The translations under genes and the position numbers were made by a program. Of a stretch of DNA of 24,009 bases, positions 2,703-22,257 are shown one piece after another (the first letter of the stretch is position 1; each line of letters starts with the position of its first letter). The DNA is from a virus, in the IMG/VR virus record IMGVR_UViG_3300025889_000939, positions 1 to 24,009 of that record; one strand, 5' to 3'. The notes under the pieces were generated by a model. That model was not told the DNA's origin. It made no database searches and saw only the letters and a program-made list of their open reading frames with translations.

Positions 2703-3026
2703 ATGACTTGGAAAAACATTCTTAGAAAGAGCATTGAAACGGCTACCCGTTCTGCTGAACTATGGGCTATGAATGATTATGACTTATATCAAGATGTCAA
2801 AGCCAAAATTACAACCTTAGTGAAAAGTGGTCACGATAAAGAAGAAATCATTACTATTTTATCTTCTTGGCTACCAAATATGATGGCTCACATGGATGGG
2901 TTTATGGAAGAACTGGCAAGAGAAGATGCACAAGGAATTCCCGATGCAATTAGTGATGTAGATTGGGAAGAAGTGTCAAGAAATTACGAAGAAGATATTG
3001 ATACTATTATTGAAGACTACGCTTGA
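2703..3026 (+). CDS. Small acidic protein with N-terminal MTWKNILRK motif
   Basis: A 107-residue protein whose ATG follows GGGGATTACA, a degenerate copy of the cassette. It starts MTWKNILRKSIETATRSAEL, the shared peptide with Arg for Lys. The body is helical and acidic, with DVDWEEVSRNYEEDIDTI near the C-terminus. That stretch carries a second W-E-E-V-x-R segment loosely like the motif. The family is not recognised. It is the last gene of the cassette cluster before the long 675-residue gene. Confidence 0.85.
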   Translation: MTWKNILRKSIETATRSAELWAMNDYDLYQDVKAKITTLVKSGHDKEEIITILSSWLPNMMAHMDGFMEELAREDAQGIPDAISDVDWEEVSRNYEEDIDTIIEDYA

Positions 3027-3035
3027 GGAATAAAA

Positions 3036-5063
3036 ATGTGGTTTGAAGTAATTAAAACGAGGCAACCTGCCGATGTCTTTGCTTTGGCTTTTATAATTCA
3101 AGATAATAAAAAAACAGATAAGTTAGTTGGAGAACTTGAAACGGCTAAAGTGAATGAAAATTTTAAAGGAATTTTATCTACAATTAAAGCAGGACAATTA
3201 ACATTAGATTCTATAATTGCCAAATTTCCAGTTCCCGACTTTCCAAGAGAACAAGCAGAAAAAAATCTCGAAAGAATTATGCAAACTGCCAAATTTGAAA
3301 CGATTTCTAACTTAGAGCCTATCCTAAGAGAAGCAATTGCTCTAAATTCTAAAATTAGAAATCCAAATGAGGAGACTACTACTGCCGATGAGGAAAAATT
3401 AGCGTCTTTAGTTGAGAAAATTGTTGAAACTTCAAAAAAATCAAGGCAAAAATTGTCTGATGACAAAGTGGTAAGAGAACTTTTGGCCTATTTTAATAAA
3501 AATGTAAGACCAAAAAAGAATTTTGTGCTTACTTTTGAAAAAATTCCCGAAGATAGAGCAGACTTTGAGAAAAAATTACAAGAAGTGGCTGAAATTATCG
3601 TAAAAGAAGAGAAAGTTGGAGAAGAAACAGTGACAACTTACTTAGGAAAGGTCGAAAATGGCGAAATTTTGACTAATTTTTCTACTGCGAATGAACTTTT
3701 AGCATTTTTGAATTCAAACCCCGATAAAAAGGAAATGTTTGCAGAAACATTAGCCCCTTTTAGTCCAAAATTACCACAACTTACTCGTTCTTTTGGAGCA
3801 AAAAGGAAGAAAACTTCAAGAAAAAAACAAAGCGAAGAAAAATTACAAGATTTGGTAGTAAGAGAGGTTAAATTTACCCCTGCTACAATAGATAGTTATG
3901 AAGATGTTCAAAAATATCTTAAAGCCTTGACAAATGTTCCATATAGCCTAAAAGCATTCGTTCCCGATGTTCTTTCTACTACAACAGGAGATAATTTAAC
4001 TGAGGAAACCAATGATATGCCCGAACAACTCATACTTTCAAGAGAGTCGGGTAGAAGCAAGTCAATAATTCTAAATCCTTATGCTGACTTATTGATGAAA
4101 AATGATTATACTAATCCAAAAACTTGGTTTAGAGACTTTTTTGAAGACATACGAGTTTCACAAATTGTTAAAGAAGGAGCAGCAGAACTTATTGTATTAG
4201 ATGACATTTATGATATGATTCAATTGAATAAAACAAGTAGGTTTGGGTTCAATCCCGATATGTTTAGTTCTATTTCTTTGTCCGAAAATAGAAAGGCTTC
4301 AAGACAGAAACTAAAAGACATTATTCTTGCAGATTCTACACTCAATGCTGAATTTAATAGAGGGGTAAAACCCATGTTAGAGAATGTGCTTACTGAATTA
4401 AGAACGGACTTTACAGTGAATGAAGCAGAACAACTATTAGAACTTTGGAATCCCGAAGTGTCTGATTTTGAAGAAGAATATGGGGAAATTTCTTTTATCT
4501 ATAAAGATGCTAAAGGCCAAGTTGTTGAAAGCGAGGGAGATGCTAAGTTTGTGGAAATTCAAATTAATGGCGAAAGTAAAAACTCCGACCAAATAAAAGA
4601 GATTTTAGAAGACGAAGGAGAAGAAATAGAAATGATGCCATTTAGAGAATTAGTAGAAGGTAATAACTTTATTTCGTATGTTCTTTCTTTAGAAGACTTG
4701 GGTTCTATTTTAACAGAAGCAAATACTTCTGCAAAATACATAGATAAACTTGAGCCAAAAAATAGTCTTGTGTTTTTAGCAACAATAAGCGAAAGTATGA
4801 CAGGTCAAAATGAGGATTTGGTGATTAATGCTCTCGAAGAGGTTTCTTTAGAGGAATCTGATTCAGAAAAGGAAGTCCTACTAAAAGAATTAAATGATAA
4901 AATGCCTCAATTTCTAAAAGACTTGAAAGAGCAATTAATTAATGCATTTCAGATAAAACTGAACGACTTTTCAGAAAATTACATTAATTATGTTGGCAAC
5001 AGTAAAGATAAAGCAATAAGGGCTATTGAGGCGTTTAAGAGGGAAGGGCTTTTAGAGGAGTGA
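3036..5063 (+). CDS. Large helical protein of unknown function (675 aa)
   Basis: The start ATG at 3036 follows GAGGAATAAAA. The N-terminus MWFEVIKTRQ resembles a shifted version of the W-x-x-I-[L/I]-K peptide (compare MTWFSIIKK at 1348). The protein is charged, with no signal peptide or membrane segment seen. A lysine/arginine-rich patch (AKRKKTSRKKQ) lies near residues 254-266 and could be a linker or nucleic-acid contact. The region around residues 395-420 (ELIVLDDIYDMIQLNKTSRF) and the acidic C-terminal half show no motif I can name. The stop overlaps the ribosome-binding region of the next long gene, so the pair is probably co-translated. Internal head, scaffold-core or injected protein are possibilities, all speculative. 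Confidence 0.88.
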   Translation: MWFEVIKTRQPADVFALAFIIQDNKKTDKLVGELETAKVNENFKGILSTIKAGQLTLDSIIAKFPVPDFPREQAEKNLERIMQTAKFETISNLEPILREAIALNSKIRNPNEETTTADEEKLASLVEKIVETSKKSRQKLSDDKVVRELLAYFNKNVRPKKNFVLTFEKIPEDRADFEKKLQEVAEIIVKEEKVGEETVTTYLGKVENGEILTNFSTANELLAFLNSNPDKKEMFAETLAPFSPKLPQLTRSFGAKRKKTSRKKQSEEKLQDLVVREVKFTPATIDSYEDVQKYLKALTNVPYSLKAFVPDVLSTTTGDNLTEETNDMPEQLILSRESGRSKSIILNPYADLLMKNDYTNPKTWFRDFFEDIRVSQIVKEGAAELIVLDDIYDMIQLNKTSRFGFNPDMFSSISLSENRKASRQKLKDIILADSTLNAEFNRGVKPMLENVLTELRTDFTVNEAEQLLELWNPEVSDFEEEYGEISFIYKDAKGQVVESEGDAKFVEIQINGESKNSDQIKEILEDEGEEIEMMPFRELVEGNNFISYVLSLEDLGSILTEANTSAKYIDKLEPKNSLVFLATISESMTGQNEDLVINALEEVSLEESDSEKEVLLKELNDKMPQFLKDLKEQLINAFQIKLNDFSENYINYVGNSKDKAIRAIEAFKREGLLEE

Positions 5064-5068
5064 TTGGA

Positions 5069-7531
5069 ATGAATTATGAAGAAGAAATAATGCAATTTAT
5101 TGATAACTATGAATACGGCACTTCCCAATATAAAAATAAGAAGAAGGAACTTCTTCGTAGAATTAAAGAAGGGGTTGCTCAAGAAAAATTAGACGAAAAG
5201 GAATCTAATGAGAAACTCAAAGAGTTAAGGAGGTTTTTGAGAAGCCAAGAGCAAAGCAAGCAAATGGCTTCAGGGCAAACTATTTCCATAGGAAGTCGAA
5301 AACTAGAAGGAAGTTTAGACCCTATTTTGAGAATGAACATTACTAACGAAAGTGGGGTTAAGCATTCTCCAAGCACTTTTACAGATAGGAAATTAGAAGC
5401 AGATGAAATAGTTATAGGCAATATTGTAGAAGAAATCATGACAAAGGATTATGCTAAAAAACTAAAAGAATTCGCTGAGGCACTTGGCGGTGAAAAAGAA
5501 AAGAATCTTTTAGAGAACTTTAAGTCTATTAAAAGAGAGATGGAAAGGAAAAGAAAAAAAGAGTCTCTTCCCGAAGTAAAGACAAAAAACATTACAATAG
5601 ATGTTCGTAAATATTTAGGTGCTACTGATTTATCCAAAGCCACTACAAGAGAAGGAATCTATACTTTTTGGGAAGAAGTGGCTAAAAAATATAATGCGTT
5701 TGATGATGCTTTACAAGAATTCTTTAGAAATATTATGGATGAACAAGGGCTTAAGACTTTATTTGAGATAGTTCAAGAAAAAGGAGAGCGAGCCTTCTAT
5801 GACGAAGCAAGAAGAATTTATGAAAAATATGGAAATGAAAATTTAGAATATCTTGCTGATTTTACAAAGGCACAAGCAAAAATAACTGCTGACCCTAAAG
5901 AAAGGCTCATTGAAGCATTTGATAGAATAGTTACTGCTGAACAATTGGCAGAAAAGAAAAAAGAAATTATTCAAGGAGATGTAGAAGAAGACACCTTTGA
6001 AAGCACACAAAGGGCGTGGGAAGAAGTATATATGAATGAAGAATTAAATGCCTCTAAAGGCGGTATTTTAGGTGATTTTGAAATTGACCTTGTTGATGAG
6101 GAAGATGAAGATGATGTAAGGGATTTAATGGAAATGCCTACTGACCCACTTCTTGCATATGAATTAATGAAAAATAAAAAATTAATTGCTTTAGATGATG
6201 AGAGCGAACTTATTCTAAAAGAAACTCTTGCAGAACTAAAGAAAGAAAACTTGTATTTAGATTTTCAAACTAACTTATCTGAATTATTAGATGAAGTAAA
6301 AGATACAGTTGATATAGATAAAGAAAAATATGTTCTTCCTATTTCTGTTCTTTCTAATGATATGTTTGCTAAGTATATTAAAACAACAAAAGTTCCTTCT
6401 GCTATCAATAAAAAAGAAATCACTGTTGAAGTGTTAGAAACTATTGATGAATTGTTTGAGGAAATTCATGCCTTACTAAGCACTGAAAAGTTTGGCTTTG
6501 CTATGGGAGTTAGAGCAACAGGTAGAGCAGGTTTAGGTAGTTTAGTAGAAAGAAGAGAAGCGAGGGGAACGGCAATACAAAGATTGGCAGAAGAACCTCT
6601 TAGAACTGTTCCAAGTAATCCCGAACAAAGAGGAAAATTAAAAGAAGAAATAAAACCTATATTGGAATCTCTACAAAAATTATTGAATGCCTTTGCAGAT
6701 TACTACCTCAATCCTCTTTATACAGGCCGCCTACCAATAGAAATTCCATTGTATAGTAGTGGTAGAGGAGCAAAAGCCCTTGCTATCTTTTTGAAAGATG
6801 TTGGGGGGGAAAGCCTCATGGCAGAATCCTATGAAAAATTATCTACTATTGGTAGAGCAACTATTAGTAAAAAGAGCATGAAAGATTTGGCTGATTTCTT
6901 AATCAAATTAGAATCACCAAAGATAGCAGTAGATGATGGTTTAATCAAGATGGCTAAACAGGCATCTAAGGGATTGACAGATATGTTGGGCAATCCTGAA
7001 AAGAATCATAATTATTTTTCATCTGTTCTTATGCATTTTATGGAACAAACAGAAAATTTAGATTCAGCAGATGAAGACTTTTATGGGGTAACTATTCAAG
7101 ATAGGGCAGATATGTTTGAAAGAGATTATGAGAATAGAGTTCCTTATCCCATATTTGCTCTACCACAATTTGTTGATGAGAACCAATCTCTTATGACAAA
7201 AGATAAGGCAAGAAAGGAACAGTATGAGAGGCTAAAGAGCGTTCTTGAAGTAGTTGAAGAAGACCTATATGTGACTCTTACTAAACTACTAAAGGCACAT
7301 GATGAAATAAGAAAGGCATTGGGTAAGCCAGTATATTATGGATTTATGCCATTAACTTATGACTCGTATGAGAGGATGGTAGAGTTGCTTTACCAAGAGC
7401 AAAATGTTGATTTGAGCCATTTAGAAGTTAATAACATTGTAAAATCTGATGATGCTCACAAAAATATCTCAAGAGAATACGGAATTACAGAAGAACAGGT
7501 GTATTTAATTAAAGCAAACTTTAGGTGTTAA
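5069..7531 (+). CDS. Large helical protein of unknown function (820 aa)
   Basis: I place the start at ATG 5069, because GAGGAG at 5055-5060 sits eight bases upstream. An in-frame GTG at 5060 would overlap that site. The product is charged and mainly helical, with long Lys/Glu stretches early on, an acidic run (VDEEDEDDVRDLMEMPTDP) near residue 350, and a Gly/Arg-containing stretch (GVRATGRAGLGSLVERREAR) near residues 480-500 that may be a flexible or processed segment. I do not recognise a family. It overlaps the preceding gene's expression unit and lies two bases before the GNAT gene. Size and position suggest a large virion or morphogenesis protein, but tail-type features such as transmembrane spans or beta repeats are not seen. 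Confidence 0.88.
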   Translation: MNYEEEIMQFIDNYEYGTSQYKNKKKELLRRIKEGVAQEKLDEKESNEKLKELRRFLRSQEQSKQMASGQTISIGSRKLEGSLDPILRMNITNESGVKHSPSTFTDRKLEADEIVIGNIVEEIMTKDYAKKLKEFAEALGGEKEKNLLENFKSIKREMERKRKKESLPEVKTKNITIDVRKYLGATDLSKATTREGIYTFWEEVAKKYNAFDDALQEFFRNIMDEQGLKTLFEIVQEKGERAFYDEARRIYEKYGNENLEYLADFTKAQAKITADPKERLIEAFDRIVTAEQLAEKKKEIIQGDVEEDTFESTQRAWEEVYMNEELNASKGGILGDFEIDLVDEEDEDDVRDLMEMPTDPLLAYELMKNKKLIALDDESELILKETLAELKKENLYLDFQTNLSELLDEVKDTVDIDKEKYVLPISVLSNDMFAKYIKTTKVPSAINKKEITVEVLETIDELFEEIHALLSTEKFGFAMGVRATGRAGLGSLVERREARGTAIQRLAEEPLRTVPSNPEQRGKLKEEIKPILESLQKLLNAFADYYLNPLYTGRLPIEIPLYSSGRGAKALAIFLKDVGGESLMAESYEKLSTIGRATISKKSMKDLADFLIKLESPKIAVDDGLIKMAKQASKGLTDMLGNPEKNHNYFSSVLMHFMEQTENLDSADEDFYGVTIQDRADMFERDYENRVPYPIFALPQFVDENQSLMTKDKARKEQYERLKSVLEVVEEDLYVTLTKLLKAHDEIRKALGKPVYYGFMPLTYDSYERMVELLYQEQNVDLSHLEVNNIVKSDDAHKNISREYGITEEQVYLIKANFRC

Positions 7532-7533
7532 AG

Positions 7534-8325
7534 ATGGTTGAAAGATTTACTGCTAATGATATTTCTTTTAAAGAAATGTCCGAAGAAGAAGCGGTGAAAA
7601 CTTTTCAAGAAGATGGCTATTTTGATTACCAAAAGAGAAGAATGCGATACAAAAAAACCTCTCCCGATTCTATTTGGGCTACTGCTCCTGCAAAGATGTT
7701 TGTTGCTTTTTATGAAGATATTCCCGTAGGAGTAGTTGGATTTGCCGAGTATAGAGGGGCTTTACTTGGGGCAGGAGTTCATACTCGAAAGGAGTATAGA
7801 GGAAAAGGGCTTTTAGATATTCTAATTGATAAGGCAATACAAGAAAAGGGGTCAAGAACTCTTTATATCAATATTGCAAATCGAAATATAGTAGATAAGT
7901 ATAGAGGAAAGGGATTCAAAGATATGAATAAAGATGAACTGCCTCAACAAGTTCAAGAAGAAATAGCAGGAATACAATATGTTGACCAAGTGCAAAAGTG
8001 GATTCGCCATACTTCTGAATGGAGAAGCATTTTAAAAATTAGTGGAAGAACTGATGATGGTAGGGAAATAGATGCAGAACCCGAAACAATTAGAGACTAT
8101 TTAACTTACAGAAGTTGGGCTTGGCAATCCGATAAAGCAAGAAAAGAAGAGGGCTTATCGGGAGAAGGATTTAATGATAAAGAACATTTAGAACTAATTA
8201 CTACGCCAAGAGGAAGGGCGTTAGGCTATTCTCCGAAAGGAAGGGAATTGAAAAACTGGCTACTAACATGGAATAAAGAATTCGGAAAAAGATTAGGAGT
8301 AATATATCCAACAGGTGATGAGTGA
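7534..8325 (+). CDS. GNAT-family N-acetyltransferase-like protein with C-terminal extension
   Basis: The 263-residue product starts at ATG 7534 behind TTAGGTG; an in-frame GTG at 7525 is less likely because it overlaps that site. Residues about 45-130 look like a GNAT fold: strand-rich MFVAFYEDIPVGVVGFAEY, then the acetyl-CoA-binding motif A around EYRGKGLLDILIDKA (R89, G92), then LYINIANRNIVDKYRGKGF. GNAT enzymes transfer an acyl group from acyl-CoA to an amine; the substrate cannot be read here. Position six of motif A is Leu, not the usual Gly/Ala. A C-terminal extension of about 100 residues starts near EWRSILKISG (W163), which repeats the W-x-x-I-L-K peptide seen elsewhere. The stop TGA overlaps the next ATG by one base. 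Confidence 0.8.
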   Translation: MVERFTANDISFKEMSEEEAVKTFQEDGYFDYQKRRMRYKKTSPDSIWATAPAKMFVAFYEDIPVGVVGFAEYRGALLGAGVHTRKEYRGKGLLDILIDKAIQEKGSRTLYINIANRNIVDKYRGKGFKDMNKDELPQQVQEEIAGIQYVDQVQKWIRHTSEWRSILKISGRTDDGREIDAEPETIRDYLTYRSWAWQSDKARKEEGLSGEGFNDKEHLELITTPRGRALGYSPKGRELKNWLLTWNKEFGKRLGVIYPTGDE

Positions 8326-8819
8326 TGGAAGATATATTAAAGAGAATTCCTTATGATAAAGAGGCGGCTAAAAATGCCTTTACTATGCTTAATTTAGAAG
8401 ATACTTTTACTTTAGATTTTGATATTTACAAAGAATTTGTAGATAATTTTATTTCTAAATTAGAAGATAGTTCTCAAAAAACTTCTGTTAAAAGAACTTT
8501 TAATAATAGTGGAAGTAAAATGAATAGGAAAATAAAATCTTATTTTAAAGAGGCTGCAAAAAGCATGGGATATTTAGAAACAAAGCCCGAAGTATTTGAT
8601 AGAAGTCTAAATCAATTCAGGAAATCTTGGGAAGAAGTTTTGAAAAAGAAATCAACAGTTAATCAAGCAGGTAATTACACCAAACCTAAACTTCGCAGAA
8701 GGCTATTCAATGAAATAAAAAGAGGAACAAAAGGCGGTAGAGCAGGTCAATGGTCTGCAAGAAAAGCCCAATTGCTTGCTCAAAGATATAAGAAAGCAGG
8801 TGGGGGCTATCGTGACTAA
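8325..8819 (+). CDS. Basic small protein with GGxxGQWSARKAQLL C-terminal domain (DUF5872-like)
   Basis: I chose ATG 8325, giving MEDILKRIPYDKE, over the GTG at 8322, because GGTGATGAG lies just upstream and the TGATG overlap is tight. The opening MEDILK lacks Ser-Trp but matches the rest of the shared peptide, and a full SWEEVLKKK occurs internally (W102). The C-terminal 45 residues, ending KGGRAGQWSARKAQLLAQRY then KKAGGGY, closely resemble a short domain known in viral and bacterial proteins, which I recall as DUF5872. That name is from memory. The function of the domain is unknown to me; it is basic and probably binds nucleic acid or structural partners. Confidence 0.82.
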   Translation: MEDILKRIPYDKEAAKNAFTMLNLEDTFTLDFDIYKEFVDNFISKLEDSSQKTSVKRTFNNSGSKMNRKIKSYFKEAAKSMGYLETKPEVFDRSLNQFRKSWEEVLKKKSTVNQAGNYTKPKLRRRLFNEIKRGTKGGRAGQWSARKAQLLAQRYKKAGGGYRD

Positions 8820-9084
8820 TTGGCGTAATGTTCTCAAAGCCAAAACAAAAAGGCAACAGGACTTAACTACTTGGACTAATGAAGAATGGGGAAGTCAAGA
8901 ACAACACCGAGCAAAAGCAAAAGGCAAAACTCCTAAATCTAAAACTAAGGGAAGATATATGCCAAAAGCCACATATCAAAAAACTCCTAAAGCAACCTTA
9001 GATTATCAAGACCAAAAGAAAAGAAAGGGAACTAAAGCAGGTAAGCAACACATACCAACAGGAAAGAAGTTTAGTCAAAAGTGA
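8812..9084 (+). CDS. Small very basic protein with N-terminal MTNWRNVLK motif
   Basis: A 90-residue gene that I start at GTG 8812 because GGTGGGGG lies at the right distance upstream and the product then begins MTNWRNVLKAKTKRQQ, an evident variant of the shared peptide. The start overlaps the previous stop by eight bases. The whole protein is Lys/Arg-rich with few hydrophobic residues (AKAKGKTPKSKTKGRYMPKA), so it is likely disordered and could condense DNA or coat a charged surface. No known family. If the opening peptide targets the capsid, this would be a good candidate for a packaged DNA-binding protein. Confidence 0.8.
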   Translation: MTNWRNVLKAKTKRQQDLTTWTNEEWGSQEQHRAKAKGKTPKSKTKGRYMPKATYQKTPKATLDYQDQKKRKGTKAGKQHIPTGKKFSQK

Positions 9085-9089
9085 TTTTT

Positions 9090-9491
9090 ATGAGTTGGAA
9101 AGATATACTAAAAGAGGAAACAGATTGGGCTAATCCTTCTAATTGGACTGTTCCTTACATGAAAGTGGACTATGATAAACTTCCTTATGGTAGTATTAAG
9201 AACAATATGATTAAGGATGGTAAAATTAGTTGGAAGTATTTTACAGACAATTATCCAAGTGATAAACTAAAAAGGTTTGAAGAAAGAACTACCAATTCGA
9301 TAAAAAGAATACAAAATGATGATAACTTCAAACCTACTCCAAAATGGATAAAGTATCATGAAGGTCTTCTTGCTCAATATATGAACGAAAAAATTGAACA
9401 AGATAGGAAAGGCTCAAAAAGATACAGTCCTAAGAGTAATAGAGAAAGAGAAAGAGGAATGAATATAGGTGATTTTTTAGGTAAGGAGTGA
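9090..9491 (+). CDS. Small protein with N-terminal MSWKDILKEE motif
   Basis: A 133-residue protein. ATG 9090 is chosen over the in-frame GTG at 9081, because GTGAT (which contains the upstream TGA stop) can pair with the 16S rRNA end and because the product then begins exactly MSWKDILKEE. The first 26 bases nearly match those of the 1821 gene. The body is polar and basic, with a Trp/Tyr-containing middle (TPKWIKYHEGLLAQYMNEKI) and a run of Arg/Glu (SKRYSPKSNRERERG) before the end. No known domain. Confidence 0.85.
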   Translation: MSWKDILKEETDWANPSNWTVPYMKVDYDKLPYGSIKNNMIKDGKISWKYFTDNYPSDKLKRFEERTTNSIKRIQNDDNFKPTPKWIKYHEGLLAQYMNEKIEQDRKGSKRYSPKSNRERERGMNIGDFLGKE

Positions 9492-9495
9492 TAAT

Positions 9496-10050
9496 ATGAA
9501 TTGGCAAGATATTTTGAAAGTGGGATATATCCCAAGTGATGAGAAAAAAAGAAAAAAAGTTTTATCAGAAAATTTAGAGAAAAAGATTCTTGATGAAATA
9601 GAAAAAGAGGGTGGAGCATTAGGAATGAAAAACCTAAAGCAATTTGGTAGTGAGTCTGAAATTAAAGAAACTCTTTCTCGCTTAGAAAAAGAGGGCAAAT
9701 TGTTTATGCACAAAGATGGAGATATTTACACTCATAATCCTATTAAGAAATTTTTTGGTAGAAAACCACAAGAGCAAACCTTTGAAGAAAACGGAATTAA
9801 ATTTTCAGACCAAAAAGCCTTAGATGAGTATAAAAAACTAAAATCACAATACCCTCAACTAACTCAAAGACTTCAACAATTACAATCTCAATATCAAACA
9901 AACATTCCTATTGGAACAGTTCAATCTGAATTTGAAAGAGGGCTAAAAGAACAAAGGCAACAACAGGCTCAACAACAGACTCAACCCCCAGTTCAACCAA
10001 GAGGTAGTAAATACGGAGCAAGTGGCGAAGGGTATTCTTGGAGAGGTTGA
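9496..10050 (+). CDS. Winged-helix-like protein with N-terminal MNWQDILK motif and Gln-rich tail
   Basis: The 184-residue protein has ATG 9496 following AAGGAGTGATAAT. It opens with MNWQDILKVGYIP. Residues about 24-76 have the layout of a winged helix: a first helix (LEKKILDEIEKEGGALG), a short second helix, a recognition helix (SESEIKETLSRLEKEG), then a beta-wing (KLFMHKDGDIYTH). Such domains usually bind DNA. The second half contains a Leu/Gln helix (LTQRLQQLQSQYQ) and a strongly Gln-rich segment (RQQQAQQQTQPPVQP). DNA binding plus the shared N-terminal peptide would fit a virion-packaged DNA-associated protein, which is inference. It could also be a late regulator. Confidence 0.82.
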   Translation: MNWQDILKVGYIPSDEKKRKKVLSENLEKKILDEIEKEGGALGMKNLKQFGSESEIKETLSRLEKEGKLFMHKDGDIYTHNPIKKFFGRKPQEQTFEENGIKFSDQKALDEYKKLKSQYPQLTQRLQQLQSQYQTNIPIGTVQSEFERGLKEQRQQQAQQQTQPPVQPRGSKYGASGEGYSWRG

Positions 10051-10054
10051 TATT

Positions 10055-10345
10055 GTGAGTTGGAAAGATATTGTTTCTAAAAAAGATAAAAAAGATATGA
10101 GAGTAGGTCGTGTATATCCTTCCGATAGGGCAGGTAAGAAAATTATGATGCTAACTCATGAAGGAAAAAAAATTCATGCAGGTGCTAAAGGCTACGGTAA
10201 TTGGAAAGGTAAAGGAAAGAATCGTGGTGGTGGAACTCACACCAATAGAAAGCGTAGGGCTAATTTCAAATCAAGACATAACTGCGACCAATGTAAAGGA
10301 AGAATAACAACTCCAAGATGTTTAGCGTGTAAGAAATTGTGGTGA
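10055..10345 (+). CDS. Small basic zinc-ribbon protein with N-terminal MSWKDIV motif
   Basis: I start this 96-residue protein at GTG 10055, which gives MSWKDIVSKKD and has GAGAGGTTGAT just upstream; the longer in-frame GTG at 10022 would lie inside the preceding gene. The middle is Gly/Lys/Arg-rich. The segment KKIHAGAKGYGNW followed by RKRRANFKSRH resembles a family of small viral proteins with a K-x-H-F-G...RR-x-x-Y-x-x-RH pattern, recalled from memory as DUF5754-like. The C-terminus carries a zinc-ribbon-type CxxC-x8-CxxC (C77, C80, C89, C92). It lies immediately upstream of the terminase. Confidence 0.82.
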   Translation: MSWKDIVSKKDKKDMRVGRVYPSDRAGKKIMMLTHEGKKIHAGAKGYGNWKGKGKNRGGGTHTNRKRRANFKSRHNCDQCKGRITTPRCLACKKLW

Positions 10346-10347
10346 TT

Positions 10348-11772
10348 ATGGAATTAGACACACTAAACCTTGAACATCAAATGGATATGGAGTTATCAAA
10401 AAACTCATTCCCGTATTTTTTTCAACAAGTATTAGGTTTGGATTTTGCTGCCCATCAACAAGAATGGCACGAATTAATGAATACTACTCAAAGAACAGTA
10501 ATTATCTGTTCAAGAGGTCACGGTAAATCTGTATTTATGCACAGTTGGGTAGTTTGGAATTTAATCTTCCAAGAGCCACCGTATCAGATGCTATACATTT
10601 CATCGAACCAAAAGCAGACTATGGTTCACATGAGAGATATAGATAAGATGTTCACTCATCCTCTTCTTAAGAAATTTAAACCCGCAAGAGGATGGGCTAT
10701 TGGTAATATTACCTTAACAAATGGAAATCAAATCTTAGAGCGTTCAGTTGGTTCACAGATTCGTGGACTTCACCCTCAAGAAATTATTATTGATGACCCT
10801 TTGAAAGAGTTTAGCGTTAGCGGTATTCAGAAAGTCACCGATTGGTTTTATGGTGACATGATTCCTACGCTTCACCATACTGCTTCTTTACGAGTTATTG
10901 GAACTCCATTCAGTTATACAGATATTTACCAACAACTCGCTGAAAACGAAGCCTATACAGTTAGAACCTACCCTTGTCTTAACGCTTTAAATGAGCCATT
11001 ATGGGAAGCAAGATGGAACTACGAAACTCTTATGGAAAGAAAGGCTGAAATTGGTTCTTTAAAATTCACAAGAGAATATATGTGTGTGCCTATTTCAACG
11101 GGAACTTCTCTCTTTAATCCCGAACATTTAGATAGTGCTAAGAATAAAAACTTGGTATTGAAACCTCAAAAAAGAGAGGGAATGAAATACTTCGTAGGAG
11201 TTGACCCTGCTATTTCTACTGATGGAGACTACAATGTAATTACAGTTATTGAAATGGATGAACATGAGAATAAATCTATTGTCTATATTGACCGAGCAAA
11301 GAATGTAGAGTTTAGAGAAAACATACAGAAGGTAAAACTCATTGGTCAAATGTTTAGACCCGAAGTTATCCTTTTTGAAACAAATACATTTGCCAAATCA
11401 TTTACTCAAGAACTACGCCAAGTGGCTGATTTAAATGTTCATGACTTTAATACGACTCGCAGAAAAAAGCAAGAAATAATACTTAATTTGCAGATGACTT
11501 TGGAAAACAATAAAATGCATTTTCCTTATGGGAACGAAGAGAGCCGTAGAGTCACTTCGGCTTTAATTGAGGAATTGTCTATGTTTGCTATTACCGAAAG
11601 AGGTAAATTTGAAGGAGTTGGGGCTCATGATGATATGGTTATGAGTTTGGCTTTAGCAAACGCAGCAACTTACCAAGCGTCAGATAACTTCATACTGCTT
11701 GATGATATGGGTATCTTTGATGATGCTCCAAAGAGAGTAAATACTAACTTTGGATTGGGATTAAATTTTTGA
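10348..11772 (+). CDS. terL: Terminase large subunit (packaging ATPase and nuclease)
   Basis: The 474-residue TerL pumps viral DNA into the procapsid through the portal and cuts the concatemer. The N-terminal ATPase has Walker A SRGHGKS (residues 55-61, K60) and Walker B EIIIDDP (145-151), with a coupling-type segment near RVIGTPFSYTD. The C-terminal RNase H-like nuclease shows its acidic residues in order: GVDPA (D286), LFETN (E344) and AHDDM (D428/D429). Length is normal for the family. ATG 10348 directly follows GTGGTGAT; GTGs at 10339 and 10342 are in frame but overlap that site. No interruption or intein is seen, and the next gene starts nine bases after the stop. Confidence 0.97.
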   Translation: MELDTLNLEHQMDMELSKNSFPYFFQQVLGLDFAAHQQEWHELMNTTQRTVIICSRGHGKSVFMHSWVVWNLIFQEPPYQMLYISSNQKQTMVHMRDIDKMFTHPLLKKFKPARGWAIGNITLTNGNQILERSVGSQIRGLHPQEIIIDDPLKEFSVSGIQKVTDWFYGDMIPTLHHTASLRVIGTPFSYTDIYQQLAENEAYTVRTYPCLNALNEPLWEARWNYETLMERKAEIGSLKFTREYMCVPISTGTSLFNPEHLDSAKNKNLVLKPQKREGMKYFVGVDPAISTDGDYNVITVIEMDEHENKSIVYIDRAKNVEFRENIQKVKLIGQMFRPEVILFETNTFAKSFTQELRQVADLNVHDFNTTRRKKQEIILNLQMTLENNKMHFPYGNEESRRVTSALIEELSMFAITERGKFEGVGAHDDMVMSLALANAATYQASDNFILLDDMGIFDDAPKRVNTNFGLGLNF

Positions 11773-11781: not shown

Positions 11782-13152
11782 ATGGCTACTGCTGAACAAT
11801 ATAGACAAGCCTCTACTCAAATGGATAGGTTGGCTGAACTCAAAGACGAAGAAGAAGAGGCTATGGAAGAAGTTCAACAAGAATTAGATATTGAACTCAA
11901 AGGACTTTTTTCTTATGGAGAAGTTCTTTCTGAACTTGATGAAATTGCTAAAGTTTCTAACACTTACAAAATAAATGGTAGTCAAGCAAGGGATATGTTG
12001 AATTCATATCCAAAGGAATACTTGGTTCAAGACCAAACAGTTCCAGAAATAATCAAAACTATGAGGAATAATAGAAGGAATTTGAAAGGAGAGTATCGAG
12101 ATAAAATGTCTAAGGCTATTGATACTCTCATTGATGCATACTCCGACCATCTAAACAAGTGCATTGATTCTATTCATTGGCTAACTCCTTACAAACAAAC
12201 CTTGTTGAAAATGAGATTTAATGAAAAAGACTTAAGCAAACTTTACAAAATGAAAGACATTGAAACAAGAAGAGAAGTCGTAGATGCATTATGTAAGTAT
12301 TGGGAAGCAGAACTTGAGCAACAGGATATGGTATATAGTCAAGAATATGCTCAACTCTCCAAAACAATGAGTTCAGCAAAGAAACAATTTAGAGATGCGA
12401 TTGCCAAAGTTAGTGACCAATCAATTACTAAGTCTAAAAAAGAAAGGCAGGAAGAATTTATTGTCAAAATGGTTTGTGAAAATCAAGGTATTGGGGCAAG
12501 ACAAATACATGAAAGAATGCCAACAAATATGTATAAGATTTCAAGCCCTCAAATGATTTCTAAAATGATAAAGAAGTTAGATATTGTTTCAGTAGATGGA
12601 GCCTACTATAAAATGCCAAGTGAAATGAAAAAGAATATTTGGGCTTATACGGCTGCATTTATTGATTCAGATGGATATATTACATTAGACCGTAATATGA
12701 ATCCAAGAGTCGGATTAGTGGCAACAGGAGAAAGGGGCAAGGCATTCATGAATGAAATGCATAAATCAATTGGTTTTGGTCGCTTGCATCTAAATCAAAA
12801 ATCTCCTCAAGATACTCGACCAGTAAATCGCTTAAACTTCTATTCTCAAGATGATGTTATGAACCTACTAACAAAGTGTCTTCCTCATTTTAGAATGAAG
12901 AAAGGAAATGCTGAACTTTTGATTGAATTAATTCGTATGAAAAAATCTCACAAGAAGGCTGATTGGTATAAACAAAGGTGTGATGAAATTTTTAAGTTAA
13001 TGAAATGGGAAAATCATAAAGACCATGTTGGTTTTGATTTTACTAAAGAAGGTATATATTTAGACGATATTCAAAAATATAAAGATAATTGCAAAATATC
13101 TCTAATGGATGAAATAGAGCAAATTGGTGGAACTATTCTAAAGGAGGAGTAG
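11782..13152 (+). CDS. Coiled-coil protein fused to a single-motif LAGLIDADG-like domain
   Basis: A 456-residue protein in three parts. Residues 1-215 are acidic then basic helices and coiled coil. Residues about 225-280 look like a winged helix (ENQGIGARQIHERM ... MIKKLDIVSVDGAYYKM). Residues about 285-400 begin with WAYTAAFIDSDGYITL, matching the LAGLIDADG motif (residues 290-298, acidic D295 and D297), and continue with the strand/helix pattern of a homing-endonuclease half. Only one motif is visible, so it would act as a homodimer or be a domesticated non-cleaving DNA binder. It lies between terminase and portal as a full gene with its own GAGGG site, not as a group I intron or intein. 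A structural or packaging role is as likely as homing. Confidence 0.85.
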   Translation: MATAEQYRQASTQMDRLAELKDEEEEAMEEVQQELDIELKGLFSYGEVLSELDEIAKVSNTYKINGSQARDMLNSYPKEYLVQDQTVPEIIKTMRNNRRNLKGEYRDKMSKAIDTLIDAYSDHLNKCIDSIHWLTPYKQTLLKMRFNEKDLSKLYKMKDIETRREVVDALCKYWEAELEQQDMVYSQEYAQLSKTMSSAKKQFRDAIAKVSDQSITKSKKERQEEFIVKMVCENQGIGARQIHERMPTNMYKISSPQMISKMIKKLDIVSVDGAYYKMPSEMKKNIWAYTAAFIDSDGYITLDRNMNPRVGLVATGERGKAFMNEMHKSIGFGRLHLNQKSPQDTRPVNRLNFYSQDDVMNLLTKCLPHFRMKKGNAELLIELIRMKKSHKKADWYKQRCDEIFKLMKWENHKDHVGFDFTKEGIYLDDIQKYKDNCKISLMDEIEQIGGTILKEE

Positions 13153-13154
13153 AG

Positions 13155-14033
13155 ATGGATATAGAAATCTATGAAGTTGGTGCAAGAGATGGCATACAAA
13201 ATAGTAGTTTTCCAATAACCACTAAACAAAAAATCCAAATGATAGAAATGCTATATGAAGCAGGGTTAAAGAATATGGAAATCACTTCATTCGTTAATCC
13301 AAAGTATGTTCCTAAAATGGCTGATGCTAAAGAAGTATTTGAAGCAACAAAGGAGTTAGATTCTTTTGGAGTATTAATACCCAATCAAAAAGGAATGGAT
13401 AGGGCAAGAGAAGTAGGAGCAGAAAAAATAAATGTTTTCTTTTCTCCTTCTAATAATTTTAATTACAGAAACTTAGGAACTGATTTAAAAACTGCTTATG
13501 GTAATATTGAAAATATGTTAATAGATACTGATAGAGAAAAGGTAAGGGCATATATTTCGTGTGCTTTTGGTTGCCCATTTGAAGGAATGCCTAAAGAACA
13601 TCAACTAATAGATGCTTTGGAAAAAGCAAGTGCTATTGCTGAAACTGTTGTTTTGTGTGATACTATTGGTGCATCTTATCCAACTAAAATGCTGACAACA
13701 TTAGAACTAACAAAAAAAATTGATTCTAAGATAGCCCTCCATCTTCATGAAAATAGAGTTGAGGGTAATGATATTTTTGCCAATGTAAAATCTGCTTTAG
13801 ATTGGGGGATAACTTCTTTTGATAGTAGTATTAATGGGCTTGGCGGTTGCCCTTTCATACCAAATAGCGGGAGTAATTTATCTACTAATCAATTAATTCA
13901 TTGGGCTGAAAACAATAACTATGAGACAGGAATAGAGTTGAATGACTTGAGAGAAGTCACTTCATATATGCATATGTTAGAGAAGGGCTTGCCCGAAGGA
14001 TTCATAACAGACGCATCTCCTGTTGCTATTTAA
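13155..14033 (+). CDS. HMG-CoA lyase-like enzyme (DRE-TIM metallolyase)
   Basis: The 292-residue product has the length of a complete hydroxymethylglutaryl-CoA lyase, the enzyme that splits HMG-CoA into acetyl-CoA and acetoacetate. Family signatures in order are EVGARDGIQN (R11, D12), ITSFVNPKYVPKMAD, AFGCPFEG (136-144), CDTIGASYP (168-176), ALHLHEN with metal ligands H196 and H198, and FDSSINGLGGCPFIP with catalytic-loop C232, then N241. All expected catalytic and metal residues are present. It departs from typical enzymes after HxH: ENRVEGND replaces the usual D-T-Y/R-G-type stretch. The start follows AAGGAGGAG, and the gene sits between the LAGLIDADG fusion and the portal. A related lyase or condensing enzyme of the same superfamily is the alternative. 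Confidence 0.92.
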   Translation: MDIEIYEVGARDGIQNSSFPITTKQKIQMIEMLYEAGLKNMEITSFVNPKYVPKMADAKEVFEATKELDSFGVLIPNQKGMDRAREVGAEKINVFFSPSNNFNYRNLGTDLKTAYGNIENMLIDTDREKVRAYISCAFGCPFEGMPKEHQLIDALEKASAIAETVVLCDTIGASYPTKMLTTLELTKKIDSKIALHLHENRVEGNDIFANVKSALDWGITSFDSSINGLGGCPFIPNSGSNLSTNQLIHWAENNNYETGIELNDLREVTSYMHMLEKGLPEGFITDASPVAI

Positions 14034-14046
14034 GGGAGGTATGACT

Positions 14047-15684
14047 ATGGCTGATGAGTCGAGAAGATTTAGTCTAACTAATTTATTTAGGCGTTCTACT
14101 CCTAAACCTGCGGATAGAGAAATCTATAACATAGGTATTCAAGAAAGGCAACAAAATAGCCTAATGACCGCACCTTTATTATATCACATTGTTCAAAATT
14201 CAGTTATTACTCGAACTTGCATTACTCAACTAAAACAAGAAATATTTAGAAGAGGATATGTTTGGGAAAAAGCATACGAAGCAGTATGTCTTTCTTGTAA
14301 AAAACAACACAAAAGACCCGTCACGGAATGCTCAAGGTGTGGTAGTGAAAATCTAAAGACTCCCGATGTAAAGCAATTAGAATATGCTGAAAGGTTCATA
14401 GAAGGATATGTCAATAAAGCAGAACAATTGTTCATTGATGTTCTTAGAGAACTTGAAGATGATTTGAATATCATGGATGATGCTTATATTGTTCTTGTAA
14501 AAGAATATTTTATTGACGGAAATCAAAAAATACGAATGCACCGTATTAAAGAAATTTATCGTGGCGACCCAGTGACTATGGCAATTTATTCTGATGAGTT
14601 AGGTCAAAGAGGAACAAAAGGATTTACTTGTGTTAATCATAGAGGAATGCTTTCTACTGAACCACATGAAAGATGTGAAGAGTGTGGCAGTTCTCTTTAT
14701 CCTGTTCATTATGTAAATAGAGTAGGAGGACAAGACCAATACTTCATCAAGGGAGAAGTTCTTCACTTTAGTAAATATAGTCCATCAAGATTGTATGGTA
14801 TGTCTCCAATAATTACTCTCTATAATCATATTACTACTCTTATTGCTATGGAGAATTATGTTAATTCTTCTTATCAAAAGAGTCGTATGCCAAGAGGACT
14901 ACTCGCAGTTCAAACAAGAAATATGGATTCTATGCGTTCTTTTTGGAGGTCTGTTAAAGAGAAAATGGAAACAGACCCCCACTTTATTCCTGTAATGGGC
15001 ATTGAAGCAGAAGGCGGTAAAGGTTCTGTTGAATGGATTAAGTTCATGGATAGCCTAAAAGAAATGGATTATGTTTCTGTTAAAGATGATTTGAGAGATA
15101 GAATTTCAGCATTCTATGGAGTAAGTAAAGTGTTCATGGCTGATAATACTACAAGCGGTGGATTAAATAATGAAGGTATGCAAATTCTCGTAACAAATCG
15201 AGCAGTTCAAATGGCTCAAAATGTGTATAATAATTATGTATTCCCATTTTTAATCAAACAGTTTGGCATTACTGATTGGGATTTAAAACTTCCACCAAGC
15301 GAAGAAGAAGATGAAATTGCAGTATTGAGAAAGAGAGAGATTGAAGTTAATATTGCAGCATCTACTAAGAATTTGGGCTTTGAAGTTGAGATGGATGAAG
15401 ATGGTAATTTCACATTTAAGAAGCCCGAACCAAAAGAACCAAAAGAAGGAGAAACTCCTTCTGATGAGAGCAAAGTTGAATTAGACCCTTATGCTGGCAC
15501 TAACATAGATGCCAGTCAATTAGGACAAATGCAAGAACAAGCATTTAGCAAACCACAAGAGAATCCCCCTGCAACAAGAAACAAACCAAGAATGAGCGTT
15601 GGCCCAGATAAAAGATTAACAGGATTACCGACAGATGCAGGAAACCAAAATGTAGATACAAGAAACGAAAGGAGAATTGGTTGA
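14047..15684 (+). CDS. Portal protein with two zinc-binding insertions
   Basis: The 545-residue protein matches portal architecture. An N-terminal helical region (LYHIVQNSVITRTCITQLKQE) is followed by the wing and stem/crown, with LYGMSPIITLYNHITTLIAMENYVNSSYQK, a GIEAEGGKGSVEWIKF strand region and RDRISAFYGVSKVFM, then a disordered Pro/Gln tail. The portal dodecamer forms the DNA channel at one capsid vertex. Two inserted zinc-binding segments are visible: C81/C84/C95/C98, and C195/H198/C210/C213. I chose ATG 14047, six bases after GGGAGGT; ATG 14041 is adjacent to that site, and an upstream TTG overlaps the lyase gene. The identification rests on fold pattern and its place after terminase. 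Confidence 0.9.
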   Translation: MADESRRFSLTNLFRRSTPKPADREIYNIGIQERQQNSLMTAPLLYHIVQNSVITRTCITQLKQEIFRRGYVWEKAYEAVCLSCKKQHKRPVTECSRCGSENLKTPDVKQLEYAERFIEGYVNKAEQLFIDVLRELEDDLNIMDDAYIVLVKEYFIDGNQKIRMHRIKEIYRGDPVTMAIYSDELGQRGTKGFTCVNHRGMLSTEPHERCEECGSSLYPVHYVNRVGGQDQYFIKGEVLHFSKYSPSRLYGMSPIITLYNHITTLIAMENYVNSSYQKSRMPRGLLAVQTRNMDSMRSFWRSVKEKMETDPHFIPVMGIEAEGGKGSVEWIKFMDSLKEMDYVSVKDDLRDRISAFYGVSKVFMADNTTSGGLNNEGMQILVTNRAVQMAQNVYNNYVFPFLIKQFGITDWDLKLPPSEEEDEIAVLRKREIEVNIAASTKNLGFEVEMDEDGNFTFKKPEPKEPKEGETPSDESKVELDPYAGTNIDASQLGQMQEQAFSKPQENPPATRNKPRMSVGPDKRLTGLPTDAGNQNVDTRNERRIG

Positions 15685-18520: not shown

Positions 18521-21067
18521 ATGAAGTTAAGTTCCATCGAGAAGGATAAACAACCTTCCGAAGAAATACTTCGTTTATTTGAAAAGGTTAGAGTAGCATA
18601 TCTTTCTGCAAAGAATGACCCTACTGAATATGGGGGTCGTTGGAGAAACGCAGTAGAGTTAATCAAAGAGTCTTTAGAAGAAATTGACGCTACTTCAAAG
18701 GAACTTAAAGATTTCATAGATGAAGATTTATTGGATGCAAAGGAGAGTGGCGACCCGTCTTCCGACCAAGCAAAGAAAATTTTTGAAGGAATCAAATCTT
18801 TAAGATATTCTTCTGATTTAGTTCAAGACCCATTCGCTAAAAGATTTAAGGGTAATGTTTTGGAAGCCCTTTTGGGAAATCCCGAAATTATGGTTAAGTT
18901 TGTGCATTATGCATTGAGGAGTGATGATAACACTTTGCCCAAAGAAGTCTATGCAATAAAAGACATGCAAATGGATGATATTACAGTAGGTCTTAAGGGC
19001 CTTGACATAGAATCTGACGATATTGCCCTCTATATTATTGAGCATTATGGGGATGGAAAAGACTCGAAAGCGGTAGAAAAGAAAGTTAAATCCGCTTTAG
19101 ATATGTTAGAACTTTTAATGCTCTCAAGATACGAAGAAAGTGATTTAGATGAACTTGTTGAAATAGAAGGTTTTGAAACAGAAAAAGAAGAAAAGGCTTC
19201 TATTAAAAAAGATGAAACAGAAAAATCAGAAGAAGAAAAATCATTAACAGATTTTATTGTTCCAAATAAACCAATGTATAGAATATTTGAAATTGAAGAT
19301 ATTAATGAATTAAAAGGATTTAGTGGAGATTGGTATATTCAAGAAAAATACGATGGTATGAGAATACAATTGCAAAAAATAGATAAATCAATTAAAGTGT
19401 TTTCTTATAATAAAAAAGACATCACGGAAAAATGTAAAGAAATAGTTAGCGAACTAAGTAAAAAACAATTTGGAGATTGTATTCTTGATGCAGAACTAAT
19501 TCTATTTGATGGTGAAGATGCTTTACATAGAGCAGACACCATTTCCCATGTATTTCAAAATAAATACAAAGATGCAAAATTAAAATGTCATGTCTTTGAC
19601 ATTATGCGACATAATGAACAGAATCTATTAGATGAAGAACTAAGTGATAGAATGACTATTATGTTTAACAACTATTCAATGCATTCTTCTGATATTCTTA
19701 ACTTTCCTTCAAAGAAAGATACTCGTCAAGCAGATAATCTAAAAGATATTGAAGAGTATGCAAAAGAGATTATGGAGATGCCTACTTCCGAAGGAGTTGT
19801 CATTAAAGATGCTACTTCTACCTATTATGTAGGAACAAGAAAGAACCCTAAGTGGATTAAGTGGAAGAAGTTTGTAGATTTAGATGTTATTGTTTTAGAT
19901 AAATCAAAAACTAAAAGCAATTTATATTCCTATACTTTAGGAATTGGGCCTGTCGAAGATGAAGGTAAATTTATTCAAGAATTTCAAGGAAAGAAATACA
20001 TGAATGTTGGTAAGGCTCTTAATACTAAAATTAGTGCTAATATTGGAGATATAATTAGAGTAAAGGTAGATGAAGTAAAAAATGCAGGAGAAAGATATAC
20101 TCTTTATTCTGCACAAGTAATTGAGATACCCGAAGTTGAAGCACCCGATAAATTGGTGACTTTAGAAATGCTTTCTCAAGATACTAAAAAATCCTTGAAC
20201 TATTCTATTGAAGGTTTAAAGAAAGGAATAACTATTACAGACCATATTCATGGAGAAGCCACTCTTATTGTTAAAGCAGACTTAGATGGGTTCACTATCT
20301 ATGGCTTTGAAGAAAATAATTTAATGTCTAAAAACGCATTGATGGACTTAGATATGTGGAAACAACAAGTAGAAGAGATAATGAAAACTAAGCAAGGTAA
20401 ATTAACAGTTGCTATTTTTAATTACCTAAAGCAAAATGGAGCAAAGACTCCCAAAGAAGTCCATAATTACTTAGTTAGAAATCAACCTTCATTATATGAG
20501 GACATTTTAGAAAGCGAATATTCTAAATTAAAAGATTGGGCGGAACAAAGGGATGGAATTAGTTTTGAAAATGATAAACTATTTGCAGAAGCAGATAAAA
20601 TCTATCAAGAAGATGACATTAAGAAAGCCTACAAAACTCCCGAAGAATACCAAAAAGGACAATTTAGAATATACATGAGAAAGGATAACAACCTTAACAT
20701 TGTGATGAAATTAGGTGATGAAAGTATCAATTGGCTTATTGATATAGAAAACGAAGAAGAACTCTTTGATATGTTTGGCAAAGCAGGTAAATACCCTGCC
20801 GAAGTTGCTAAAACAATTGACAAAGAAAAGACAATTGATAGTGGTTCTGTTAAATTAGGCATTCAAAGACATGGGTATCATGAATATTTCTTAGAAGGCA
20901 ATAAGTTCCAAACAAAACTTCATGTTCGAGTTATTCCAGTAAAAGGCAATAAGATGTGGTTAGCATGGACTGGTTTTAAGCAGAAACCCGCAGACCAAGA
21001 AGGTGATGAGGGCATTTGGAACATTTATGAAGATAAATTTAGTTCAATGCAAATACCAAGAAATTAG
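18521..21067 (+). CDS. Multidomain ATP-dependent DNA ligase with C-terminal extensions
   Basis: The 848-residue protein seals nicks using ATP. Residues 1-215 resemble the helical DNA-binding domain, and residues about 195-240 form a charged linker. The adenylation domain follows, with motif I EKYDGMRI (nucleophile K276), motif III around CHVFDIMRHNEQNLL, motif IV EGVVIKD (424-430) and motif V KWIKWKK (444-450). An OB-fold-like region runs to about residue 555. Two further parts are unusual: a winged-helix-like segment at about 622-695, and a C-terminal beta-rich region at about 711-830 (YFLEGNKFQTKLHVRVIP, KMWLAWTG). The last is loosely reminiscent of the LigD phosphoesterase domain, without obvious catalytic residues. 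ATG 18521 follows GGGGGT. It lies inside the head-gene block. Confidence 0.95.
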   Translation: MKLSSIEKDKQPSEEILRLFEKVRVAYLSAKNDPTEYGGRWRNAVELIKESLEEIDATSKELKDFIDEDLLDAKESGDPSSDQAKKIFEGIKSLRYSSDLVQDPFAKRFKGNVLEALLGNPEIMVKFVHYALRSDDNTLPKEVYAIKDMQMDDITVGLKGLDIESDDIALYIIEHYGDGKDSKAVEKKVKSALDMLELLMLSRYEESDLDELVEIEGFETEKEEKASIKKDETEKSEEEKSLTDFIVPNKPMYRIFEIEDINELKGFSGDWYIQEKYDGMRIQLQKIDKSIKVFSYNKKDITEKCKEIVSELSKKQFGDCILDAELILFDGEDALHRADTISHVFQNKYKDAKLKCHVFDIMRHNEQNLLDEELSDRMTIMFNNYSMHSSDILNFPSKKDTRQADNLKDIEEYAKEIMEMPTSEGVVIKDATSTYYVGTRKNPKWIKWKKFVDLDVIVLDKSKTKSNLYSYTLGIGPVEDEGKFIQEFQGKKYMNVGKALNTKISANIGDIIRVKVDEVKNAGERYTLYSAQVIEIPEVEAPDKLVTLEMLSQDTKKSLNYSIEGLKKGITITDHIHGEATLIVKADLDGFTIYGFEENNLMSKNALMDLDMWKQQVEEIMKTKQGKLTVAIFNYLKQNGAKTPKEVHNYLVRNQPSLYEDILESEYSKLKDWAEQRDGISFENDKLFAEADKIYQEDDIKKAYKTPEEYQKGQFRIYMRKDNNLNIVMKLGDESINWLIDIENEEELFDMFGKAGKYPAEVAKTIDKEKTIDSGSVKLGIQRHGYHEYFLEGNKFQTKLHVRVIPVKGNKMWLAWTGFKQKPADQEGDEGIWNIYEDKFSSMQIPRN

Positions 21068-21110
21068 GTGTTCTTTATATAGTAGAGGGTAATTAGGAGG
21101 GTTGAAGAAA
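21068..21110 (+). promoter_or_regulatory. Candidate archaeal-type TATA box and ribosome site before the capsid genes
   Basis: This 43-base gap is one of the largest non-coding stretches in the window. It holds TTCTTTATATAGTAG at about 21071-21085, which contains the TTTATATA sequence typical of archaeal promoters, and then TTAGGAGGG at 21093-21101, nine bases before the protease ATG. A separate promoter for the abundant capsid proteins would make sense. However, the distance from the box to the ribosome site is short for a start 25 bases downstream, and AT-rich DNA gives such boxes by chance. Confidence 0.35.
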
Positions 21111-22256
21111 ATGACAGTTCTTCTCAAAAGGGAAATACAAGACTTTCAAATATTGAAAAGCGATGAATTAATGATAGGGGGATATGCAAGTATAGAAATC
21201 GTAGATAAACAAAACGATTTGATTACCCTAAAAGCATTAAATGAAGCAGTAAAAAAATATATGGAGAATCCAAAATTTAGAAATGTAATGACAAATCATT
21301 CAAATGTTCAAGTCGGAGAAGTAGTAGAATCATATCGAGATAAAAGTGGGAGGTTATGGAAAACAGAAGTAGATGATGTTGGCTTCTTTGTTGTAATTAA
21401 ACTCCGTGACGATATAGAAAAAGCAAAAGAAATAAATCGAGGAATAAGAAAAGGTTCGCTTAGGAGTTTTAGTATTGGAGGACAAGCAATTCAGAAAGTG
21501 AAAAAGAATCACCCAGAATTAGGACAATACAATGAAATTAGCAAATTAGAACTACATGAGGTAACAATCTGCGAAAAAGGAATAAACCCCGAAGCGAAAT
21601 TTGACATTTTAAAACAAGAAAAAAAGGTGAAAAATATGACAAAACTAGAAAAAGCATTGGAGGAATTGGATTCATTAATGAATGAAGTCAATGCTCTAAG
21701 AAAAGAAGAAGAAGAAGAGATGATGGATATGCCAGCAGAAGAGGAAGAGAAAGGTATGGGCGAATACATGGATGATGAAGCCAAAGCCGTAGTATCAACT
21801 CTTGATGGTGCAGGTGTAGAAATCGGAGAACCCGCAGACCGTGTTGTAGTAGATAACGGAAAGCCAAGAGCAACAGATATGCCAGTTGTTAAGGCATTTG
21901 ATAGTAATGAGTTTTCAACTCTTGACCTATCAAATGAAAACATCGAGAAGGCTTACGAGGCTTTCCGACAAGAACAACTTGAAAAGTTGGCTTACGACAA
22001 TCTACAAAAGCAATTTGAAAGCAGATTTGCAGAAGAAGTCTCTACAAGAGAAGACTTGTTGGCAAAGGCTGAATATGATGCACAAACAGAAATTGCTTCC
22101 CTAAAGGAAGAATTTACACAACTACGAAAGTCTCTAACTGAGAAAGAAGAAACAATTCTAAAGGCTCAAGAAGAGGCTCAAATCAAACTCCCTTCATTGG
22201 AGGAAATTTCAGAAATGGACTGGAATGACATTCATAAGATGGCAGGAGGAATTTAA
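21111..22256 (+). CDS. Prohead protease fused to scaffold-like region, C-terminal MDWNDIHKM motif
   Basis: The 381-residue protein starts at ATG 21111 behind AGGAGGG. Residues 1-170 look like an HK97-type/XkdF-like prohead serine protease: GGYASIEIVDKQNDLITL, VMTNHSNVQVGEVVES with catalytic H63 candidate, SLRSFSIGG with S121 candidate, then KLELHEVTICEKGINPEA. The rest is acidic linker (EEEEEMMDMPAEEEEKG) and coiled coil (FRQEQLEKLAYDNLQKQFES onward), fitting a scaffold domain fused in one chain. Such proteases assemble inside the procapsid, cleave scaffold and themselves, and leave. The C-terminus EMDWNDIHKMAGGI (W371) matches the 18011 product. The capsid gene follows after one base. Confidence 0.93.
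   Translation: MTVLLKREIQDFQILKSDELMIGGYASIEIVDKQNDLITLKALNEAVKKYMENPKFRNVMTNHSNVQVGEVVESYRDKSGRLWKTEVDDVGFFVVIKLRDDIEKAKEINRGIRKGSLRSFSIGGQAIQKVKKNHPELGQYNEISKLELHEVTICEKGINPEAKFDILKQEKKVKNMTKLEKALEELDSLMNEVNALRKEEEEEMMDMPAEEEEKGMGEYMDDEAKAVVSTLDGAGVEIGEPADRVVVDNGKPRATDMPVVKAFDSNEFSTLDLSNENIEKAYEAFRQEQLEKLAYDNLQKQFESRFAEEVSTREDLLAKAEYDAQTEIASLKEEFTQLRKSLTEKEETILKAQEEAQIKLPSLEEISEMDWNDIHKMAGGI
22212..22253 (+). other. C-terminal MDW-x-DIHKM peptide, second copy
   Basis: This segment encodes SEMDWNDIHKMAGGI, the last residues of the protease/scaffold protein. It shares MDW, DIHKM and a Gly-rich end with the 18011 product, and shares the pattern W-x-[D/N]-I-x-K with the N-termini of many small proteins in the window. 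The Shine-Dalgarno sequence of the capsid gene (GCAGGAGGA) encodes its final Ala-Gly-Gly. Confidence 0.8.
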
Positions 22257-22257
22257 A

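Follow-up and report, generated by a model that had tools for sequence, protein, structure and literature searches.

The window analysed here, the whole of a 24,009-nucleotide stretch of the IMG/VR virus record IMGVR_UViG_3300025889_000939, carries an HMG-CoA lyase-type gene among its late genes. The gene is a single intact ORF, and the sequence read directly shows a strong ribosome-binding site in front of it. In agreement with the original prediction, which placed it between packaging and portal genes, the order is terminase large subunit, HNH-like ORF, lyase and portal, with the HNH-like ORF and the portal flanking the lyase directly. The features of the window are as follows:

1348..10345, + strand: block of late ORFs, many of which begin with the tag M[ST]WxxI[LI]K
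10339..11772, + strand: terminase large subunit
11782..13152, + strand: 456-aa HNH-like ORF, matching HNH endonucleases weakly over its C-terminal half; in relatives it invariably bounds the slot on the left
13141..13149, + strand: Shine-Dalgarno-like AAGGAGGAG, 5 bases 5′ of the lyase ATG and directly preceding the stop of the upstream ORF
13155..14033, + strand: HMG-CoA lyase-type gene, 292 aa, ATG start, stop included
14023..15684, + strand: portal protein, which probably starts at ATG 14041 and bounds the slot on the right
18521..21067, + strand: ATP-dependent DNA ligase-domain protein, within the late block
21102..22256, + strand: prohead protease, with a C-terminus, EISEMDWNDIHKMAGGI, similar to the tag of its neighbours
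22225..23592, + strand: major capsid protein, probable start 22258

Two other late proteins deserve mention. A late ORF at 7525-8325 encodes a GNAT acetyltransferase-like domain. The ligase-domain protein (848 aa) is part of the head module, where it lies between portal and protease, and has a long N-terminal extension. An 835-aa ORF occupies a similar position in the relative contig G198 (described below), where, of the other proteins scanned, one ORF likewise has a ligase domain.

Enzyme family, active site and viral branch

Profile scores, solved relatives and fold all bear out the proposed assignment to the HMG-CoA lyases. The NF004283 model (hydroxymethylglutaryl-CoA lyase, PRK05692) matched the window protein at 1.2e-69; the score of 234.8 bits falls just short of the curated cut-off, which is 246 bits. 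Related viral copies scored 251 and 259, above the cut-off (contigs of L007 and L102), and 244, 237 and 231, below it. PF00682 (HMGL-like) matched at 3e-27, and the best solved sequence matches were HMG-CoA lyases (Bacillus 1ydo, 4e-46; human, 1e-45). The AlphaFold model of the lyase (pLDDT 91, pTM 0.89) had a TM score of 0.87 against human HMG-CoA lyase 2cw6, and its best PDB matches were all HMG-CoA lyases with a DRE-TIM barrel. Over human and bacterial HMG-CoA lyases, TM scores were 0.83-0.89, with an rmsd of mostly about 2 Å.

The original prediction had allowed for placement with a condensing synthase instead. This did not occur, and the family scores favor HMG-CoA lyases. The DRE-TIM condensing synthases (isopropylmalate, homocitrate and citramalate synthase) share the superfamily and the barrel, but the best of their models scored far more weakly than NF004283 (1.7e-13), TM scores were about 0.67-0.76, and 292 residues leave no room for the extra domain of the full-length enzymes. 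A condensing synthase is thus ruled out by model scores, size and fold. With cellular HMG-CoA lyases (human HMGCL 2cw6/3mp3, Bacillus 1ydo, Brucella 1ydn) the window lyase shares 31-34% identity, the TIM barrel, the xRDG start, HxH, the GLGGCP loop and the Asn metal ligand; unlike them, it has an insertion after HxH, a changed second shell, a viral-clade C-terminal tail and a place in a viral head module. The HMGL-like protein of Klosneuvirus KNV1, a giant virus of eukaryotes, is likewise virus-encoded and of the same fold (TM 0.84), and is 29% identical to the window lyase.

Alignment to the human enzyme confirmed that all of the catalytic and metal residues named in the original prediction are kept. 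R11, D12, H196, H198, C232 and N241 correspond to human R41, D42, H233, H235, C266 and N275, and E42 corresponds to E72. In human numbering, we take R41 and C266 to be catalytic and D42, H233, H235 and N275 to be metal ligands. The GLGGCPF loop is present, with C232 as the catalytic Cys. Every one of the 20 viral copies placed has R41, D42, E72, H233, H235, C266 and N275, and the loss of catalytic residues that had been considered for close relatives was seen in none of them. Judged by sequence, the window lyase is a well-preserved HMG-CoA lyase-type enzyme with an intact active site.

The change noted in the stretch after HxH is confirmed as well. The window lyase has HLHEN and a further three residues in place of HxHDT. 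Most viral copies share this alteration, with E (or at times K, Q, H or N) after HxH, then N, G or K, and mostly three more residues. The second-shell changes in the window lyase are V166, E199-N200 with the 3-residue insertion, F234, N245 and Q246. Second-shell S201, D236, T237, E279 and D280 are conserved in most cellular lyases and altered in nearly all viral copies: S201 is V in all 20, and in 17 of them E279 is N and D280 mostly Q. The usual HxHDT and E279/D280 are thus absent from the window lyase, and a few cellular members deviate too.

In a tree of 20 viral copies, gathered with sequence patterns from the same viral clade, and 36 cellular copies, among which the archaea are represented by one (Haloferax), all viral copies fell on one side of a branch with support of 100/99 that was found in 100% of bootstrap trees. 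Given this split and a best cellular identity of about 40%, a recent capture from a sampled cell finds no support in this sampling, in which archaea are scarce. Pairwise dN/dS among the viral lyases was 0.07-0.26, which indicates purifying selection and a maintained function; together with conservation, it rules out a decayed or chance ORF. Since the gene is kept in many independent contigs, it is not an assembly artefact either. Hits in Acinetobacter phage MD-2021a were left out of the viral relatives because they are part of a complete operon for acyl-CoA degradation and have the look of bacterial DNA within the phage record. In that record (CAKLQH020000001.1, locus L214), which is probably bacterial chromosome, the HMG-CoA lyase is annotated leuA_2 and the operon is of bacterial type.

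The second-shell changes common to the viral clade leave it possible that the exact substrate is another acyl-CoA. A repurposed lyase of this kind would retain the chemistry, C-C cleavage of a 3-hydroxyacyl-CoA, and act on a different molecule. Such a reading is suggested by the coherence of the changes (S201 to V, HxHDT to HxHE/K plus N/G/K and an insertion, E279 to N, D280 mostly to Q), by the stem of 0.81 changes per site that separates the viral clade from the sampled lyases and by the solved Acinetobacter lyase 6nds, which was crystallised with coenzyme A and 3-methylmalate. We nevertheless consider it rather unlikely, given that the catalytic and metal residues are all kept, that the basal copies L099, L100 and L102 retain E279 and D280, and that human HMG-CoA lyase and the model resemble each other very closely.

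Virus group and the variable slot before the portal

In at least 80 IMG/VR loci the terminase shares 80-95% identity with that of the window, and several of these loci belong to contigs of 90-97 kb. Its portal is closest to the portals of the Haloarcula viruses HVTV-1 and HCTV-5, which supports the earlier suggestion of an archaeal tailed virus. In the relative contig G198 (96,385 bases, from locus L008, terminase 90% identical), the replication and head modules occupy opposite strands. Pfam searches of this contig matched, among others, family B polymerase, chaperonin, helicase, DNA ligase, AAA, histone-fold and TFIIB-type proteins. Magroviruses (order Magrovirales) are described in two papers as Caudoviricetes of about 90-110 kb with head genes like those of the halovirus family Druskaviridae and with opposed replication and morphogenesis modules (PMC12999244, PMC10768690). 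Head genes, contig size and opposed modules of this kind were all found here, the module layout being read on the relative G198. Because the terminase relatives, the halovirus-like portal and the layout and Pfam content of G198 match the published description, the window is, by sequence comparison, a magrovirus, a member of the Poseidoniales-virus group. Poseidoniales as the host is taken from the literature on the group (PMC12999244, PMC10768690).

Among 77 terminase-matched relatives in which the portal is present as well, what lies between the HNH-like ORF and the portal varied: nothing, small ORFs or a lyase. The lyase occupied this slot in only 7 of the 77 and is therefore dispensable. 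Other viral copies lie outside the slot, beside small tagged ORFs (L092, L093, L098) or beside tagged ORFs that may be long or small (L095, L097, L099, L100, L102). The late-operon position had been regarded as odd, but it is not isolated: in the sampled contigs the lyase is found either in the slot between terminase and portal or amid late genes that are tagged.

The histories of terminase and lyase disagree. Between the window and L004 the terminases are 95% identical and the lyases only 63%, and over pairs the rank correlation between terminase and lyase identity was weak (0.27, p 0.12). Based on this disagreement, the lyase has probably been swapped between viruses. Faster evolution of the lyase alone would also explain the disagreement, and we do not favor it over exchange.

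Possible role of the lyase in infection

HMG-CoA lyase has already been published as a magrovirus auxiliary gene for host metabolism (PMC10768690, PMC10160649). The lyases reported there for Aoguangviridae/magroviruses (Poseidoniales virus YSH_150918; the vOTUs of Xu et al. 2023) have the same enzyme name and come from the same virus order as that of the window, a likeness that goes as far as the annotation. To these the window contributes a further member; what is new here is the viral branch, the slot, the probable exchange and the second-shell pattern.

Our favored explanation, to which we give about an even chance, is that the gene is a magrovirus auxiliary gene for a competent metal-dependent HMG-CoA lyase that acts late and in the cytoplasm, cleaving host HMG-CoA and drawing carbon from isoprenoid synthesis. 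The comparisons show the family, the fold, the active-site residues, the selection, the virus group and a conserved place in the late block; the activity on HMG-CoA, the timing and the metabolic purpose are what we infer. The divalent-metal-dependent TIM-barrel enzyme would probably be made with the late genes and would act in the cytoplasm of the infected archaeon, where it would split HMG-CoA, supplied by the mevalonate route or by leucine breakdown, into acetyl-CoA and acetoacetate. Cleavage would come at a stage with no further need of new membrane lipid, and carbon would be removed from isoprenoid synthesis and given back as acetyl-CoA. No HMG-CoA synthase was found to be encoded in 18 viral contigs searched, most of them about 90-100 kb, and any substrate must therefore come from the host. 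A complete archaeal lipid pathway has been reported for Poseidoniales (PMC6461757). It is plausible that HMG-CoA cleavage would drain the mevalonate route, as the original prediction proposed. Counting against our favored explanation are the second-shell differences, the NF004283 score slightly under the cut-off and the dispensability suggested by the few relatives with a lyase in the slot.

The same reaction, HMG-CoA to acetyl-CoA and acetoacetate, could instead boost the last step of host leucine breakdown for energy, with no block of lipid synthesis intended. HMGCL is placed under leucine degradation by Xu et al. 2023 (PMC10160649), and Poseidoniales have been described as protein degraders (PMC6461757), which would suit this role. 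On the other hand, neither the window nor the 25 Pfam families listed for G198 included another leucine-pathway gene; bacterial lyases such as one inspected here, by contrast, are found in operons with acyl-CoA carboxylase and enoyl-CoA hydratase. The findings are compatible with both the lipid drain and the leucine reading; we think the latter rather unlikely, on a par with a repurposed lyase.

If the lyase works as we propose for the drain on lipid synthesis, very abundant archaea of the surface ocean would have carbon of the isoprenoid route redirected to acetyl-CoA by their viruses late in infection, and the enzyme would be a viral control point on archaeal lipid metabolism. The viral branch, the intact active site, the concerted second-shell change and the probable exchange make both the lipid-drain and the new-substrate readings testable with one purified protein.

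A tag shared by late proteins

A more surprising by-product of this analysis than the lyase itself is the tag at the start of many late proteins. In the window, M[ST]WxxI[LI]K is found at ORFs 1348, 1821, 2703, 3036, 9081 and 9496, with variants at 2121, 2535 and 10022. The C-termini of the prohead protease (MDWNDIHKMAGGI) and of an 80-aa ORF (MDWSDIHKMVENAGGQ) are similar to it. Using the pattern W-x-x-[ILVM]-[LIVMHF]-[KR] within the first 20 residues, the tag was detected in 546 of 1641 forward-strand ORFs of 81 loci, counts that do not represent independent events because closely related contigs are included. Its consensus is M-[SNT]-W-[KEQ]-[DEN]-I-L-K, and the bodies of the tagged ORFs form 174 similarity clusters. 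On G198, the tag was borne by 8 of 51 late ORFs and by none of the 87 others (Fisher p 2.4e-4). Shuffling the late ORFs gave 0.06 tagged on average, and all 8 tagged ORFs lie within 12.7 kb before the terminase. A literature search, which was not exhaustive, found no description of M[SNT]WxxILK.

The internal proteins of T4 enter the head by means of a 10-residue N-terminal sequence (PMC9026906), which makes capsid targeting a reasonable guess for the magrovirus tags. By this analogy, the tags are possibly a capsid-targeting signal. A broader proposal, which we offer tentatively and hold to be somewhat less probable than not, is that the late block is a head-cargo locus in which the tags would dock hundreds of unrelated small proteins in the prohead in a T4-like manner, forming a large exchangeable injected set; the lyase would then be exchangeable cargo that acts in the producing cell and not in the virion.

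The original prediction had also raised the option of a virion-associated enzyme, that is, a lyase packaged in the virion and delivered along with the DNA. In favor of this option, the neighbours of the lyase bear the tag that resembles a capsid-targeting signal, and copies in the slot between HNH-like ORF and portal have a conserved C-terminal tail, PE[GA]xITEAxPVAE (residues 279-292 of the window lyase), the last 12 residues of which are disordered in the model. This tail is absent from copies elsewhere. Moreover, neither tag form occurs in any of the 24 viral lyase copies checked, so that, unlike a T4-type capsid-targeted internal protein, they lack the short terminal targeting-like peptide of their neighbours. 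This is evidence against packaging by the tag route; the virion-associated option thus found no support, and we regard a packaged lyase as very unlikely.

The tag or a similar sequence was located at 1348-10345, 18011-18253 and 21102-22256 of the window, in loci L004-L083 and on G198 (L216-L220). A second lineage has a tag of its own, [T/S]GEPMDLAxRLLK, which is found at ORF ends and also recurs within long ORFs, so that these resemble a polyprotein made up of tagged units. Six copies were counted in L102/G201 (1-3618), five in L095 (4998-7487) and three in L099 (6092-8932).
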